Positions 12,810 to 46,316 of a stretch of 46,316 nt of DNA are shown in pieces. The stretch comes from a virus. The DNA lies in IMG/VR virus record IMGVR_UViG_3300020578_000140, positions 1 through 46,316 of that record. One strand, 5' to 3'. The position numbers and the translations under genes are program-made. The notes under the pieces were generated by a model. That model saw only the letters and a program-made list of their open reading frames with translations, was not told where the DNA came from and ran no database searches. Each line of letters starts with the position of its first letter. The first letter of the stretch is position 1.

Positions 12810-13383
12810 AGATAAATTAAAAATATCTGACATATTCTTTTTTTGTCCAGGCACATTAAAAAATATACCAGACAATGACTTTAATCTTAATGTATATTCT
12901 AACGTTCAGTCAAAAATAACTGAACTTGGCTATCAAATATCTGATGAGCCTAGTCAAGATAAGTATCATGCGGTGGGATTAGTCATTGAAGAGGACAATA
13001 CCAAAGTTCAATTTTTTGGAAAACTTTTTAGTTTTTCACCAAGAGGTGCTGTAGCAAATGTTGGAGACATGTTTGTTTTTATAGACTCTTTAGGTTGGTC
13101 AATTGAAAAAGGCAAAGCAACCCCATATTTTTTTAAAATTTCAGAAAAAACAATACTTGGTTCTGGATCTAAAACTTACAGGGCACAAATAATTTTTTCA
13201 GATAAATATTACATAGACGTACATGCAAATACAGAGGAAGAAGCAATAGAGACTGCTTATTCTATACCTATGAATTCTTGGACACACGAATGGCCACATG
13301 ATGATGAATTAAATAATTTTCAAGGAATTAGGCAAAGTGTTTGGGGTAAAAAAATGATAGGGGCTTCTGAACTTAATGAATAA
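12793..13383 (+). CDS. Hypothetical protein, 196 aa
   Basis: Overlaps the previous gene by 17 bp and the WhiB-like gene by 8 bp. Beta-rich with a late acidic segment (EEEAIETAYS). No family recognised. Confidence 0.6.
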   Translation: MKANLEDKLKISDIFFFCPGTLKNIPDNDFNLNVYSNVQSKITELGYQISDEPSQDKYHAVGLVIEEDNTKVQFFGKLFSFSPRGAVANVGDMFVFIDSLGWSIEKGKATPYFFKISEKTILGSGSKTYRAQIIFSDKYYIDVHANTEEEAIETAYSIPMNSWTHEWPHDDELNNFQGIRQSVWGKKMIGASELNE

Positions 13384-13660
13384 GATAAAATGGAAAGACA
13401 ATGGTTCTTGTGTTGATTATGATACTAATTTATTTTTTGATAAATATGAAGAGTCTGAAAACTTTAGACCAGCAATAGACAAATTATGCTCAGGGTGCCC
13501 AGTAGTAAAAACATGTTTTTCTGTTGGAGTTTCTCAAAAAGAATGGGGCGTTTGGGGTGGAGTATACTTAGAGGGTGGAGAAATTTCTAAAGAATTTAAT
13601 TCTCATAGATCTCAGGAAGATTGGGGTGAGGTTTGGATTGGACTCACAAATGAGAGGTAA
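13376..13660 (+). CDS. WhiB-like iron-sulfur transcription factor
   Basis: 94 aa. The four cluster cysteines are C12, C38, C41 and C47 (CSGCPVVKTC), followed by the WGVWGG turn (57-62). WhiB proteins carry a [4Fe-4S] cluster, contact the principal sigma factor and are restricted to Actinomycetota and their phages, so this is the best host marker in the window. The basic DNA-binding tail of host WhiBs is short here (SHRSQ). It is a candidate regulator of the unusual promoters at the right end. Confidence 0.9.
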   Translation: MNKIKWKDNGSCVDYDTNLFFDKYEESENFRPAIDKLCSGCPVVKTCFSVGVSQKEWGVWGGVYLEGGEISKEFNSHRSQEDWGEVWIGLTNER

Positions 13661-38257: not shown

Positions 38258-39274
38258 TTACGCAACTGCTAGAACATCTTTCACTACTTTGAGCAGACGA
38301 TTTTTTTCTGCTGTGATAGCAGGGTCAAAACCACTTGAACCCATTAGTATTGATTCAGTAAGACCACGCTTACCTCCACGATACCAATCAATTCTTTCTG
38401 TGAGTGCGTTCCAAGCACCCCAAGCAGTTCCAGAAATCATGCCGTTAAACTCACCAGTATAGATGTCATTGATTGTGTCAACTTTTTTAGTCCATTTAGT
38501 GAGAGCCTGTTTAGCATTTTTATCAGGCTTTGGATAAGCAGCGAGAACAATATCATTGAATTGTTGCGCTGTGATTTCTTTCTCAATCATAGCCTTAGCC
38601 ATTATTGAAAACTCATCCATGTAAGCATTAGCAACAGCAAGAGCCTCACGAGCCTGTTGCACTTTACCATTGGCAGATTGCGTATGACGAATCTTGAAAG
38701 ATTGCTTAACGCCATCCTTCTTTTTCTTGCCACCTAGAGCAACAGCAAGAGTGTTAGCGCATACAACACGAACAGGGGTGACAGACGCTTGAATTGCAAT
38801 AGAGCCATCGTGTGATGTATTAACAAGAAGATAAGTCTTGATAACATCAGCAACACCACTAGGGTCTAATACAGTTTCACGCTGTAAGGCAAGAGAGCCA
38901 AATACAACACGACCACCACGCAACGAGCCAGCAGTTTCCCAACGACCTCCGCCATCAAGAATTGCATCACCAAATGAGAATAGGTCTTCGTTTTGTAGTG
39001 GAACATAGCGCTCACCTACAACACCAAGAACATCTGTCTGAGTGTTATCTGTGGGGTTAGTTCTCACAACATACTGATAAGATTTATCTGAGGTGAGATA
39101 ATTTGGAATATCTAATTCCTCTAATCTAACATTCCAATTATTTAGATTAGCAGCAACTAACATTTCGTTAGTATTTTTTTCTTCTGTGAAAACTGTGCCT
39201 AAGCCATGCCAAGCAGGTTCTCTGAAAGAAGCAAATGAAGCAACGCCATTTTGCGTTTCTAATTCATGAGCCAT
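38258..39274 (-). CDS. DUF932 phage/plasmid-like protein
   Basis: 338 aa. AWHGLGTVFTEEKNTNEMLVAANLNNWNV, VGERYVPLQNEDLFSFGDAIL and VRVVCANTLAVAL are the DUF932 (TIGR03299) landmarks. Full family length. Promoter TTGCAT-17-TAAGAT upstream. Role unknown; the family is often found on mobile DNA. Confidence 0.88.
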   Translation of the reverse strand: MAHELETQNGVASFASFREPAWHGLGTVFTEEKNTNEMLVAANLNNWNVRLEELDIPNYLTSDKSYQYVVRTNPTDNTQTDVLGVVGERYVPLQNEDLFSFGDAILDGGGRWETAGSLRGGRVVFGSLALQRETVLDPSGVADVIKTYLLVNTSHDGSIAIQASVTPVRVVCANTLAVALGGKKKKDGVKQSFKIRHTQSANGKVQQAREALAVANAYMDEFSIMAKAMIEKEITAQQFNDIVLAAYPKPDKNAKQALTKWTKKVDTINDIYTGEFNGMISGTAWGAWNALTERIDWYRGGKRGLTESILMGSSGFDPAITAEKNRLLKVVKDVLAVA

Positions 39275-39357: not shown

Positions 39358-39404
39358 CTACGTAAAACGGACATTTAGGTATAAAACGGGCCGACCACTT
39401 TTTG
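39358..39404 (-). repeat. Bipartite element CGTAA/GTCGGGC, copy 3
   Basis: CTACGTAA at 39358 and GCCGACCACTTTTTG from 39390, 32 bp apart. The inner ACGTAAAACGGACATTTAG (19 bp) is identical in the 42.8-kb copy. Confidence 0.65.
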
Positions 39405-39645: not shown

Positions 39646-40113
39646 TCAGTATTCTGCAGTAGAAATATTATCTACTTCTACTTCTACATCAACATCATGA
39701 GACGAAGAATCAGCCCAAACATTTAAATCAATATCCTCGACATCAAATGTTGAAAGTTCATTAAATGGCACCCTTACAACTCCTGTGATTGTTGCAGTTG
39801 CTTCAAAGTGAATTTCCTTTTCAGGGGCAAATCCAAATATTTGACAAATCTCAGATACAATATCTTCTGCAGATGTGTCGTTTTCTAACCATCCGTGAAG
39901 TTCGCCTTCTAACTGGCGATGAAGTTTGTTGTGATTGTCAACCACTCGTTGGTAATAACGAGCATTTTCTAATTGATATTCAATATCAGTTACTTTTACT
40001 GTGGGGTAGTGGTTTGTTACCCCTCTTCCTTCATCATTATCAATAACTTTATAAGTTACTAATTGATTTGGGTTGTAGTGGTCAGGCACTACGATTTCAT
40101 TAGTCGTTTCCAT
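39646..40113 (-). CDS. Hypothetical actinophage protein, 155 aa
   Basis: Charged N-terminal half with LENARYYQRVVDNHNKLHRQLEGELHGWL and a C-terminal beta half ending in repeated VDVEVEVD. Overlaps the upstream gene by 14 bp. Function unknown. Confidence 0.65.
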   Translation of the reverse strand: METTNEIVVPDHYNPNQLVTYKVIDNDEGRGVTNHYPTVKVTDIEYQLENARYYQRVVDNHNKLHRQLEGELHGWLENDTSAEDIVSEICQIFGFAPEKEIHFEATATITGVVRVPFNELSTFDVEDIDLNVWADSSSHDVDVEVEVDNISTAEY

Positions 40114-40372
40114 TTACTATATCCTCCATAGATTCTATTTCATTTATAGTAGATAGCATATCATTTAATTCTGATTCTGTCAATAATGCGCTAGTTACTA
40201 AACTTGTTGTTAAAGAAGCAAGCAGAGCAGAATACTGATACAGTTCTTTAATAAACTCCTCGTCATTAACTTCATTTCTAATGTCTAGAATGTGCTTAAC
40301 ACACACCAACATCATTTCGTCATGAACGGCGTCTCTTGACGCTTCTTGTAATTTGATAGCGGTTGCTAACAT
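40100..40372 (-). CDS. Hypothetical protein, 90 aa
   Basis: MLATAIKLQEASRDAVHDEMMLVCVKHIL...helical throughout. AAAGGA 8 bp before ATG 40372; upstream in-frame codons rejected. Confidence 0.6.
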   Translation of the reverse strand: MLATAIKLQEASRDAVHDEMMLVCVKHILDIRNEVNDEEFIKELYQYSALLASLTTSLVTSALLTESELNDMLSTINEIESMEDIVNGND

Positions 40373-40478
40373 TTGTTTATCCTTTCTTATATAATCTAAT
40401 AATATCACTTATGACTGACAAATACAAACTGGAGTCGTAAATAATCTCACATAATGGACTGTGTTTTACATCACATGT

Positions 40479-43582: not shown

Positions 43583-43792
43583 TTAGTTAGCCTCCGCAGT
43601 TTCCCAAATAGTTTTCTCAAGGCTTTTATCTGCCCAAATAACTTCTCCGTCATAGTCAAAGATTATTTCGTGTGGATTACACTCGCAATTCTCAAAGTCA
43701 TAGTCCTCGCCATTTCCCCAATAGTGAGTGCCTCTGCCATCACAATAAGAGCAGTTTCTAATTCTTTCTACTGCTAGTTCTAAAGTATTCAT
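43583..43792 (-). CDS. Zinc-knuckle protein, 69 aa
   Basis: CSYCDGRGTHYWGNGEDYDFENCECNP has a CxxC...CxC pattern like a DnaJ-type zinc repeat (CxxCxGxG). ATG 43792 has AAAGGA upstream. Confidence 0.65.
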   Translation of the reverse strand: MNTLELAVERIRNCSYCDGRGTHYWGNGEDYDFENCECNPHEIIFDYDGEVIWADKSLEKTIWETAEAN

Positions 43793-43802
43793 GTATTCTT
43801 TT

Positions 43803-43850
43803 TCCTTTCTTTCATACTGAAATCTTATCATAGGGGGCTGACATTATCAA
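43803..43850 (-). promoter_or_regulatory. TGTCAG-N10-TAAGAT promoter
   Basis: TGTCAG (43843-43838), exactly 10 bp, TAAGAT (43827-43822), preceded by TGA. Its leader shares 20 identical bp with 44537-44556. Confidence 0.6.
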
Positions 43851-43864
43851 ACCCCCACGCCCCT

Positions 43865-44362
43865 TTACCAAGAAGAAGTGTAGTAAAAGGACAATTTGGA
43901 CTTTTCGGACAATTCAAGGACATGCTTTAATTGCTTGATAGTGTCTTTTATATCCTCCCAATACCATTGGTCGATATCTGTTCCGCCAAAGAAAAAGCCT
44001 TCTCTTGGTGGCAATAGGCTAGGGTCTTTCTTGGATAGAGCCTGTTGGCAGGTAGTAAGTAATTCTCTAAGTTTCTCCTTAGATACATAGTATTCACCGC
44101 AGTCATCTTTACCGCCTTGAACATTCTCAACAAACCATGCGTGTATCTGATTAGACTTGCGCCAATAAGCGCAGGTGACTGAAACCTCTACACCATAGAT
44201 ACCATGGGCAACATCTTCCATTCCAGAAGTCTTTACAATATCATTAAATAAATCTGTCACTACTTCGGGACTGTCAAAGCCAATATCATTATCTCTATCT
44301 AACTTTTTCCAGTCAATTTTTTCTACATGCTTTTTAGCAGCAAGATACATATCTAATCCCAT
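43865..44362 (-). CDS. 'MGLDMYL' phage protein, 165 aa
   Basis: MGLDMYLAAKKHV and YWRKSNQIHAWFVENVQGGKDDCGEYYVSKEKLREL are landmarks of a phage family of unknown role. Start at 44362 fits; the longer frame is rejected. Confidence 0.75.
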   Translation of the reverse strand: MGLDMYLAAKKHVEKIDWKKLDRDNDIGFDSPEVVTDLFNDIVKTSGMEDVAHGIYGVEVSVTCAYWRKSNQIHAWFVENVQGGKDDCGEYYVSKEKLRELLTTCQQALSKKDPSLLPPREGFFFGGTDIDQWYWEDIKDTIKQLKHVLELSEKSKLSFYYTSSW

Positions 44363-44363
44363 T

Positions 44364-44531
44364 TTAGTTATTTTCCTTTCCAAAAACTTTTTCCATTATA
44401 TTTAAGTTTTCCTCTGTTAGAAAACTCTGGGCACTTCCCCAAAGACCATAAATATAATTATCTCCGTATTTATCTTTCGCTAATTTTTCAATATTAGCAA
44501 TTCTATCCATTTTTTCTTTAACTGTCAACAT
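44364..44531 (-). CDS. Hypothetical protein, 55 aa
   Basis: MLTVKEKMDRIANIEKLAKDKYGDNYIYGLWGSAQSFL. AAAGGA before ATG 44531. One base from the next gene. Confidence 0.58.
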   Translation of the reverse strand: MLTVKEKMDRIANIEKLAKDKYGDNYIYGLWGSAQSFLTEENLNIMEKVFGKENN

Positions 44532-44536
44532 GACTG

Positions 44537-44580
44537 TCCTTTCTTTCATACTGAAAGCCTATCATTTTCTACTGACATTT
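44537..44580 (-). promoter_or_regulatory. TGTCAG-N10-TAGGCT promoter
   Basis: TGTCAG (44577-44572), 10 bp ending TGA, TAGGCT (44561-44556). Confidence 0.6.
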
Positions 44581-44581
44581 T

Positions 44582-44677
44582 CAATTTAGACACGCCTAAT
44601 TTTTGTGAGAAAAATCACAGGCCCCTTAAAGTGTAACGTAATTCACATTGTGGATAAGTCTGTGGAAAACCCCCCGA
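44582..44677. other. Non-coding region with DnaA boxes
   Basis: TTATCCACA (44657-44649, - strand) is a perfect DnaA box and TTTTCCACA (44669-44661) a near match, 3 bp apart. No gene in this part. May be a replication start or a DnaA-responsive site. Confidence 0.45.
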
Positions 44678-44720
44678 CTACGTAAACCAAACAAAACAAA
44701 AATTTAGTCGGGCACTTTTA
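44678..44720 (-). repeat. Bipartite element CGTAA/GTCGGGC, copy 7
   Basis: CTACGTAA at 44678 and AGTCGGGCACTTTTA from 44706, about 29 bp apart. Confidence 0.65.
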
Positions 44721-44825
44721 TTGTTTAGCAGCACACGCAAAACATTTTAGATCTGCGATGTAAATTCTACCGCAGACCTCACATGTTAGGAATTTAGTTT
44801 TCTTAGTAATTCTATTCTTTCTGAT
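44718..44825 (-). CDS. Possible zinc-ribbon ORF without a canonical start
   Basis: The frame reads KKTKFLTCEVCGRIYIADL then KCFACAAKQ before TAA, a CxxC...CxxC ribbon. No ATG, GTG or TTG lies between the previous in-frame stop and the first Cys. ATT at 44810 or ATC at 44825 could start it, or it could be translated by frameshift from the overlapping gene. Confidence 0.35.
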   Translation of the reverse strand: MRKNRITKKTKFLTCEVCGRIYIADLKCFACAAKQ

Positions 44826-44923
44826 TCTAAATTTCTAATTCTAATTAAACTAAAAACAGTTAAAGTTATTAGCCCGCCAAGAGCAATAATAATTGCAAGA
44901 ATATCAGTTGTCAAAAGTGTCAT
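44786..44923 (-). CDS. Small membrane protein, 45 aa
   Basis: MTLLTTDILAIIIALGGLITLTVFSLIRI is one membrane helix, followed by a charged tail. ATGA overlap with the upstream gene. Confidence 0.6.
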   Translation of the reverse strand: MTLLTTDILAIIIALGGLITLTVFSLIRIRNLESERIELLRKLNS

Positions 44924-45114
44924 GATGGAATTAATCCTAACTCATCAACACCGCAAGCAGTTTCAAATCTTGCTTTGTCAAAATTTTCGTTTCTAGTTCC
45001 GAAATAAGTTGAGAAGCCATCTACTAAATCTTCGTAGACCTGTGGGTGAATGTCATCTTTTACATCATTTAGAATTGAGGCGATAGCCTTGAAGTGTGCT
45101 TTAGTTAAACTCAT
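44920..45114 (-). CDS. Hypothetical protein, 64 aa
   Basis: MSLTKAHFKAIASILNDVKDDI and FDKARFETACGV are typical of a small actinophage family. ATGA overlaps on both sides. Confidence 0.65.
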   Translation of the reverse strand: MSLTKAHFKAIASILNDVKDDIHPQVYEDLVDGFSTYFGTRNENFDKARFETACGVDELGLIPS

Positions 45115-45374
45115 ACTAACACCTCATCGTTTAGCATGACGAAAGAGTGAGAGCCACCCTCATTTAAGCAGGCTAACTCATGCTCTAATTCTTCACGAGT
45201 TAAGAGAGAAGGGTTGCCTATTAATTCGTCAATAGCCTCAACATTAAGGTTAGCGAAATCAGCAAGAGGCATTTCTGAAATCTCTTTTGCGAGTGGTGAG
45301 TCAGAATAAACTCTTGAAATGAAATTAACACCATCTTTTGTGAATGGGTAATCTGTGTAAGTTGCGTTAGTCAT
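45111..45374 (-). CDS. Hypothetical protein, 87 aa
   Basis: Acidic, helical: LAKEISEMPLADFANLNVEAIDELIGNPSLLTREELEHELACLNEGG. TAATG-type spacing to the previous gene. Unknown. Confidence 0.6.
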   Translation of the reverse strand: MTNATYTDYPFTKDGVNFISRVYSDSPLAKEISEMPLADFANLNVEAIDELIGNPSLLTREELEHELACLNEGGSHSFVMLNDEVLV

Positions 45375-45488
45375 TTATTTTTTTTCCTTTTCTTTTGTTT
45401 TAATAATTGTAGCGATTTTTTCTAAATTAGTCAAGCGTGTCGCTTCACGCTCTTTTCTAACTAATTCTTGAAATTCATGAAGTTTCAT
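45375..45488 (-). CDS. Short basic helical protein, 37 aa
   Basis: Starts MKLHEFQELVRKEREATRL and ends IKTKEKEKK. TAATG junction with the upstream gene. Confidence 0.5.
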   Translation of the reverse strand: MKLHEFQELVRKEREATRLTNLEKIATIIKTKEKEKK

Positions 45489-45688
45489 TATTCCTTATCC
45501 TTAACTGCTACTGTGCGATAGTGATAGTTAGCACCCTCGCTACGAACACGAACGAGATAGGGGGTAGCATTTTCATACCATACGGCGTAAGGGTGCGCCT
45601 CAACATCTACGATTTCTCCTGTTAGAGAATTTGAACGATAGGTTTTGCCAATAAGTAGGCTTTCGATACTGTATAAATTAGCAGACAT
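45488..45688 (-). CDS. Hypothetical small beta protein, 66 aa
   Basis: LLIGKTYRSNSLTGEIVDVEAHPYAVWYENATPYLVRVRSEG: barrel-like. AGAAAGG before the ATG. Its long leader holds the paired TGAGCCTAGC motif. First gene of the run ending at 44718. Confidence 0.6.
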   Translation of the reverse strand: MSANLYSIESLLIGKTYRSNSLTGEIVDVEAHPYAVWYENATPYLVRVRSEGANYHYRTVAVKDKE

Positions 45689-45706
45689 TTAATTTCCTTT
45701 CTAGTC

Positions 45707-45765
45707 TGAGGGTTTTATTTGCTAGGCTCACCTTTCGGATTATTTGCTAGGCTCACACCCTGTAA
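45707..45765 (-). promoter_or_regulatory. Leader RNA element: two TGAGCCTAGCAAATAA motifs
   Basis: On the - strand, motif copies at 45756-45740 and 45731-45715 flank CCGAAAGG. AGGGT and ACCCT close a stem around them. Lies between promoter 45788-45816 and the 45688 start. Confidence 0.5.
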
Positions 45766-45787
45766 TTTTATTTAATTTTACTCTGTA

Positions 45788-45816
45788 ATTATTTCATATT
45801 TTTACGAAAATGTCAA
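45788..45816 (-). promoter_or_regulatory. SigA-type promoter
   Basis: TTGACA (45816-45811), 17-bp spacer, AATAAT (45793-45788). It gives a leader of about 90-95 bp. Confidence 0.6.
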
Positions 45817-45832
45817 AACGACACGCCGTAAA

Positions 45833-45952
45833 TTAACAATAAATTTTCTCAAATTCTGTGATAGTCATCACACCTTTGTATTCCATACAATTCGGACAAA
45901 ACAGACTCTCATCTGAAAGTTCTAATTCGCAAAAACAACAAATTTTGTTCAT
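45833..45952 (-). CDS. Small zinc-ribbon protein, 39 aa
   Basis: MNKICCFCELELSDESLFCPNCMEYKG has two CxxC knuckles. Start at 45952 chosen; the upstream frame would cross the promoter. Confidence 0.65.
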   Translation of the reverse strand: MNKICCFCELELSDESLFCPNCMEYKGVMTITEFEKIYC

Positions 45953-45980
45953 TTTATTTCCTTTCTTTTTAACTACCGAA

Positions 45981-46002
45981 ATTCTAGCAGGGGGGACTGA
46001 CA
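45981..46002 (-). promoter_or_regulatory. TGTCAG-N10-TAGAAT promoter
   Basis: TGTCAG (46002-45997), 10 bp ending TGC, TAGAAT (45986-45981). Drives the 45952 zinc-ribbon gene. Confidence 0.6.
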
Positions 46003-46196
46003 TTTTGCGGGAACAAATCATAACAAATCGGACATCTTAAAAAATTATTTTTGTGATTTTAACCACATAAACTTAAACAGACAAAACGGACATTTTGCCG
46101 ACGCTATCGGGCGTGTCTACAGAAAATCGGACATTTAGGACATGTGATACAGAACACAAAAAAACTTTTACAAGAATCGGCGTGTCGCCTTGATTT
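46003..46196. other. Non-coding divergent intergenic region
   Basis: No gene seen. Four CGGACAT repeats (46029, 46087, 46128 and a related GGACATG) and a GGCG-TGT-CGCC hairpin (46179-46189) lie between the two divergent TGTCAG promoters. Confidence 0.45.
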
Positions 46197-46218
46197 TGTC
46201 AGTCCCTTCTGTTATTAT
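46197..46218 (+). promoter_or_regulatory. TGTCAG-N10-TATTAT promoter, + strand
   Basis: TGTCAG (46197-46202), 10 bp ending TGT, TATTAT (46213-46218). Same geometry as the three - strand copies. Its gene lies beyond the window. Confidence 0.55.
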
Positions 46219-46232
46219 TCTCCTATAAATAA

Positions 46233-46316
46233 ATAGCGACATTTGGCTAATGAGCCTAGCAAATAAATGTGATACAACTCACAGTGAGCCTAGCGAATAA
46301 GTAGCCAAAATGTCAG
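46233..46316 (+). promoter_or_regulatory. Leader RNA element: paired TGAGCCTAGC motifs, + strand
   Basis: TGAGCCTAGCAAATAA (46251-46266) and TGAGCCTAGCGAATAA (46285-46300) flank a GTGA/TCAC hairpin. GACATTTGGCTA and TAGCCAAAATGTC close a long stem around them. Cut by the window end. Confidence 0.5.

Follow-up and report, generated by a model that had tools for sequence, protein, structure and literature searches.

Five sites in a 46,316-nucleotide stretch of viral DNA (IMG/VR record IMGVR_UViG_3300020578_000140; the whole stretch is referred to here as the window) carry the hexamer TGTCAG exactly 10 bp ahead of a TANNNT -10 box. Judging from their sequence, these sites are probably phage copies of the RecA-NDp, or PafBC, promoter of Actinobacteria, with the host PafBC captured by the phage. 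PafBC is a DNA-damage activator in Actinobacteria, and RecA-NDp promoters are the promoters that it serves. One clan of large freshwater Actinobacteria viruses appears to start an early-type gene block from promoters that copy host PafBC promoters base for base, and the evidence suggests that the virus turns on its genes by borrowing the damage alarm of its host.

A fixed promoter geometry in the window and its relatives

An earlier note on this DNA had described four TGTCAG-N10-TANNNT sites. All four lie where that note had placed them, with TGA, TGA, TGC, and TGT ahead of the respective -10 boxes, and a fifth had been overlooked (Table 1). Five matches compare with 0.60 expected in the window, and none of 100 shuffles gave five. 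TGTCAG by itself was not enriched (16 copies versus 16.2 expected), so it is the fixed geometry that carries the signal. When every pairing of hexamer and spacing ahead of TGNTANNNT in the window was counted, TGTCAG at N10 came out first (five occurrences), and in the last 8.3 kb it accompanied 5 of the 47 TGNTANNNT -10 boxes. The promoter pattern is real and stronger than first reported.

Table 1. Predicted promoters, upstream elements, and the WhiB-like gene in the window (CDS, coding sequence)
Feature	Position	Strand	Details
PafBC-type promoter, not in the earlier note	40399-40427	-	TTGTAT-t-TGTCAG-tcataag-TGA-TATTAT; core 40399-40420; ATG at 40372, 27 nt downstream; CDS 40100-40372
PafBC-type promoter	43822-43850	-	TTGATA-a-TGTCAG-cccccta-TGA-TAAGAT; ATG at 43792; CDS 43583-43792
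PafBC-type promoter	44556-44584	-	TTGAAA-a-TGTCAG-tagaaaa-TGA-TAGGCT; ATG probably 44531; CDS 44364-44531
PafBC-type promoter without -35	45981-46009	-	CGCAAA-a-TGTCAG-tcccccc-TGC-TAGAAT; ATG probably 45952; CDS 45833-45952
PafBC-type promoter, divergent	46190-46218	+	TTGATT-t-TGTCAG-tcccttc-TGT-TATTAT; served gene past contig end
TGTCAG after AAAA, last bases of the contig	46311-46316	+	Possible sixth site, truncated before the -10 box
CRP/GlxR-type palindrome TGTGA-N6-TCACA	44604-44619		Upstream of the 44556-44584 promoter
CRP/GlxR-type palindrome TGTGA-N6-TCACA	45857-45872		
CRP/GlxR-type palindrome TGTGA-N6-TCACA	46268-46283		About 30 bp ahead of the cut-off site at 46311
GGCGTGTC (GACACGCC) box	44589-44596	-	About 15 bp upstream of TGTCAG
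GGCGTGTC box	46179-46186	+	Directly upstream of TTGATT of the 46190 promoter
WhiB-like protein	13376-13660	+	Candidate activator in the earlier note; probably not the reader of TGTCAG

Because the pattern had been picked after the data had been seen, held-out relatives provided the real test. These comprised 80 IMG/VR loci (1.34 Mb) retrieved with the window's DUF932 protein (38258-39274). The pattern search that the earlier note had proposed as a check returned 431 matches in these relatives, 335 of them distinct, locked at N10. Other spacings mostly gave about 4 to 25 matches; the smaller peaks at N5, N15, and N16 probably just echo neighboring T/A-rich bases. With the box reversed, no spacing peak was observed at any distance. 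When all hexamers at N10 before TGNTANNNT were ranked, TGTCAG came first (237 versus a background of 0.54) and TGTCGG second (11 versus 0.15), and TGTCAC was also raised (8 versus 0.92). The commonest dinucleotide after TGTCAG was TG (82 of 338), as in recA promoters (TGTCAGTGG). De-redundant logos showed an optional TTG at -35, an A/T run from -32 to -29, TGTCAG from -28 to -23, C/G at -21 and -20, TG at -15/-14, and the -10 box, followed by an A-rich leader and ribosome site. A ribosome site with ATG was present at most 60 bp downstream of 96.5% of TGTCAG sites versus 54% of control -10 boxes, the median distance from the -10 box being 31 bp for TGTCAG sites. When IMG/VR was scanned blind for a 15-base version of the promoter, most of the matches listed (at least 120) were clade members; the list also included a small number of distant relatives, each with several sites, and isolated chance matches. 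Together, these data support TGTCAG-N10-TANNNT as a genuine, position-locked, and strand-specific promoter element.

In three relatives of 117 to 123 kb, all promoter-like copies fell inside one block of about 3 to 10 kb; outside it, just one or two matches were detected, in coding DNA and probably by chance. The block is homologous to genes 1 to 22 of Streptomyces phage NootNoot (Stanwilliamsviridae), which are repeated at both ends of the NootNoot genome. Early host-takeover genes typically occupy such a position, from which we infer early timing. The NootNoot block promoters carry TGTCC[CT] at the position matching TGTCAG: TGTC-N12-TAGACT occurs 12 times (six distinct sites in two copies each) versus 0 to 2 times at every other spacing. 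These promoters are possibly the Streptomyces counterpart of the TGTCAG class. Within the terminal-repeat block of NootNoot, most small genes own a promoter of the form TTGNNN-TGTCCY-N10-TAGACT. The NootNoot type (TGTCY-N11-TAGACT) was not found in 15 other records tested. No clear excess of the TGTCAG class was detected in a cultured panel (TM4, Stinger, Magritte, Dropshot, NHagos, Annadreamy, Coruscant, BarretLemon, Atuin, and a crAssphage), and megablast of the right arm of the window against cultured phages returned zero matches.

Correspondence to the actinobacterial PafBC system

The earlier note had proposed a new promoter class. However, the identical string is already in print as the PafBC motif, given as 'TGTCGG-10xN-TA-3xN-T to TGTCAG-10xN-TA-3xN-T or TGTCAC-10xN-TA-3xN-T', with directionality essential (PMC8151990). 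PafBC wedges between promoter DNA and sigma-A region 4, with PafB on the -26 motif and PafC on region 4, and is turned on by single-stranded DNA (ssDNA) bound by its WYL domains (PMC11804915). This mode of activation is sigma adaptation, according to a Sci Adv 2021 result as relayed by that source (PMC11804915). RecA-NDp promoters reach beyond mycobacteria (PMC8223512), including into S. coelicolor (PMC5087735); in S. venezuelae, one study did not find conservation of the motif (PMC9380542).

The phage sites share with RecA-NDp/PafBC promoters (e.g., mycobacterial recA P1) the hexamer with its TGTCGG, TGTCAG, and TGTCAC variants, the N10 spacing to TANNNT, a single orientation, a box near -26, and an optional -35 (PMC8151990, PMC11804915). 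Exactly 10 bp ahead of TANNNT stands TGTCAG in the window, and TGTCAG, TGTCGG, or TGTCAC in the relatives; in the latter, the element lies upstream of gene starts in a single orientation, and the -35 is optional, with TTG missing there from 114 of 180 de-redundant sites. Three differences were observed. The phage sites lie in an early-type block, whereas RecA-NDp promoters precede repair genes; they keep the -35 TTG and the extended -10 TG more often; and, unlike RecA-NDp promoters, they have CRP-type and GACACGCC sites upstream. AfsR/SARP regulation of Streptomyces promoters with an imperfect -35 has also been likened to sigma adaptation (PMC11804915). Compared by description rather than by site, AfsR differs from PafBC in touching the alpha subunits and in having no WYL domains.

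On the host side, 12 of the 14 actinobacterial genomes that were readable had TGTC[AG]G-N10-TANNNT upstream of recA; its distance is conserved in the large high-GC ones. In the family tested, the motif precedes recA and a YneA-like LysM gene, adjoining a LexA box in each case, as well as genes for a DnaQ-type exonuclease and a DnaE-type (error-prone) polymerase. Tandem WYL genes adjoining tatC match PafB (7p5x, E 5e-30) and PafC (7p5x, E 1e-31) of the initiation complex (7p5x/9fnd). Such tandem pairs are present in four genomes of the putative host family, which was reached via a single contig of a metagenome-assembled genome (MAG) carrying a phage relative; the MAG also encodes a WYL protein. 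In contrast, none of 33 phage records encodes a WYL protein, and a phage-encoded WYL activator was rejected on that basis. Given a PafB-PafC pair in the putative host family, and phage records that yielded neither a WYL protein nor a sigma region 4 match (see below), the activator is likely to be host PafBC.

During infection, ssDNA arising from incoming or replicating phage DNA, or from damaged host DNA, would activate host PafBC. PafB would occupy the box (about -28 to -23) and PafC would hold sigma-A region 4, and housekeeping RNA polymerase would then start the phage genes with no -35 box required. At TTG-bearing sites, basal transcription without PafBC would be expected, and the upstream CRP-type and GACACGCC sites probably bring further host input.

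Several observations weigh against activation by host PafBC. TTG is kept at -35 in 66 of the 180 de-redundant sites, and many of these could fire as plain sigma-A promoters. The composite form TTG-N4-TGTCAG-N7-TG had 2 matches in 396 actinobacterial genomes of the host phylum and is thus nearly absent there, so the phage promoters do not simply duplicate those of the host. The TGTCCY found in the same place in NootNoot is not a published PafBC variant, although large high-GC actinobacterial genomes have TGTCAG ahead of recA. None of nine other cultured actinophages tested exceeded control counts for the class. The link to the host family, which comes from one MAG contig, could be a binning artefact. 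A plain host housekeeping class was also considered, and was rejected on the strict composite count and because bare TGTCAG-N10-TANNNT stood near control counts in 61 genomes of one family; recurrent TGTCAGTGG sites among the matches in these genomes pointed to PafBC.

Alternative readers of the TGTCAG box

It is unlikely that an unrelated phage-encoded activator evolved to read the same box by MotA-like sigma appropriation. Such an activator would fit the density of the element in one clade, since nearly all nonchance IMG/VR matches listed belong to the clade or its distant kin; the clade also holds many uncharacterized small proteins, and the NootNoot box is shifted, as though box and reader had coevolved. 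However, the box, its variants, its spacing, and its orientation equal those of a host system that works without any phage protein. The MotA_activ profile was unmatched in 12 phage records, in a search whose controls likewise gave nothing and which therefore had no working positive control. T4 middle promoters, to which the earlier note had likened the sites, have a MotA/AsiA activator box near -26 to -30, altered use of sigma region 4, and less need for a -35. The likeness holds insofar as an activator box near -26 would re-route sigma region 4 and replace or weaken the need for a -35. It does not extend to the sequence and spacing of the box; moreover, the activator here is likely a host protein, whereas that of T4 is an early phage product.

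The spacing had also been judged too short for a -35 hexamer. TGTCAG is indeed not a -35, but in four of the five window sites a TTG hexamer (TTGTAT, TTGATA, TTGAAA, or TTGATT) had been overlooked one base upstream of it, which places the hexamer at the canonical 17-bp distance; the site at 45997 (CGCAAA) is the only one without it. Because TTG is kept at the normal -35 distance, basal activity is likely at these four sites. We consider it quite unlikely that the sites are simply ordinary sigma-A extended -10/-35 promoters in which TGTCAG is a repressor operator or a by-product of spacer composition. The TTG in four of five window sites and in 37% of sites overall, together with the strong extended -10, would be expected of such promoters. 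However, TGTCAG is the most constrained part, and the -35 is optional. A canonical TTGACA-like hexamer at 17 bp does not define the class (TTG in 66 of 180 sites, TTGAC in 10 of 180), and a perfect TTGACA occurs in 2% of TGTCAG promoters versus 11% of other extended -10 promoters. TGTCAG is also single copy, in one orientation, and locked to the promoter, unlike free-standing operators, and a repressor operator or stoperator was rejected on this geometry. Mycobacteriophage L5-type stoperators have a TGTCA-like core in phage intergenic DNA; these are scattered, whereas the TGTCAG box is fixed to the -10 by one spacing and one orientation.

The earlier note had named the phage WhiB-like protein as the activator. 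There is very little chance that this protein, perhaps with host WhiA, activates at TGTCAG. The gene is present in 19 of 30 records, the remainder being mostly fragments, and Wbl proteins bind sigma region 4 (PMC6282962). The WhiA consensus core, GACAC (PMC3781837), also takes sharp positions upstream of the promoters (-53 and -43/-44). However, apart from WhiB7, the Wbl proteins reviewed are not known to have a sequence-specific DNA reader (PMC6282962), the GACAC boxes lie upstream, outside the -26 box, and NootNoot also encodes a WhiB yet has TGTCCY. Of the features of a WhiB-dependent promoter, a WhiB-like protein is encoded, but neither a WhiB7 AT-hook site nor a WhiA GACAC was found at -26. 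WhiA itself was considered as the reader for its shared GACA core and was dropped, since GACAC peaks elsewhere. From sequence, WhiB would not be needed for TGTCAG promoters, although it could act alongside a second protein, for instance at GACAC boxes.

Finally, a phage sigma factor that reads TGTCAG plus the -10 is scarcely credible: phage-specific sigma factors exist elsewhere, but 12 phage records gave no Sigma70_r4 match above the curated cut-off (the control was positive in 14 of 14 genomes), and 10 bp is too short a span for sigma regions 4 and 2. This candidate was rejected.

Upstream elements, other genes, and implications

The relatives contain 213 distinct copies of the CRP/GlxR-type palindrome TGTGA-N6-TCACA versus 0 to 4 at other spacings, and in the three relatives of ~120 kb it is restricted to the promoter gene block. 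The palindrome centers peak at about -64, -74, and -85 from the start, with a smaller half-turn peak at -69, a distribution that reads as helical phasing like that of CRP class I activation. GACACGCC occurs in 201 distinct copies in the relatives versus an average of 6 for shuffled 8-mers, and its positions peak at -53 (GACAC) and -43/-44 (GTGTC); further GACACGCC/GGCGTGTC boxes lie at 45820 and 46110 of the window. The CRP-type and GACACGCC sites suggest composite promoters. Tentatively, and with somewhat less than even confidence, we propose that the clade wires its early block to three host inputs (PafBC at -26, a phased CRP/GlxR-type cyclic AMP regulator, and a GACAC-reading, WhiA-like factor), with infection-borne ssDNA switching the block on, so that the host damage response would serve as an early activator for the phage.

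Additional repeated elements were observed. AATGTCCG boxes lie on the minus strand of the window at 39368, 42819, 46029, 46087, and 46128. AATGTCCG-type boxes are enriched in the relatives (CGGACATT, 164 distinct copies), weakly favoring positions near -60 of the promoters; in NootNoot, related CCGGACA boxes come after terminators. Repeated GGCCGACCACTTTT / GGTCGGGCACTTTT strings between genes (window 39390, 40478, 41800, 42839, and 44705) are possibly terminators or RNA elements. Elsewhere, the region from 7224 to 33521 encodes metabolic functions unusual for a phage, including a carbamoyltransferase, a RuBisCO-large-like protein, a tryptophan halogenase, 2OG-Fe(II) oxygenases, tetrapyrrole methylases, and an AdoMet decarboxylase, and an HslV-family peptidase-like protein (PHROG 1040) is encoded at 131 to 664.

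No description of phage use of PafBC promoters on such a scale was found in the open literature searched. If the sites are indeed PafBC promoters, they would represent a case, undescribed in that literature, of phages putting a whole gene block under host PafBC. Early transcription would be coupled directly to the entry or replication of phage DNA, and pafBC status and DNA damage would be predicted to alter phage susceptibility. For work on defining the -26 code, the clade would also be a source of natural PafBC promoter variants, numbering in the hundreds and drawn from uncultured Actinobacteria, and the element would provide a sequence handle for spotting the early genes of uncultured actinophages.

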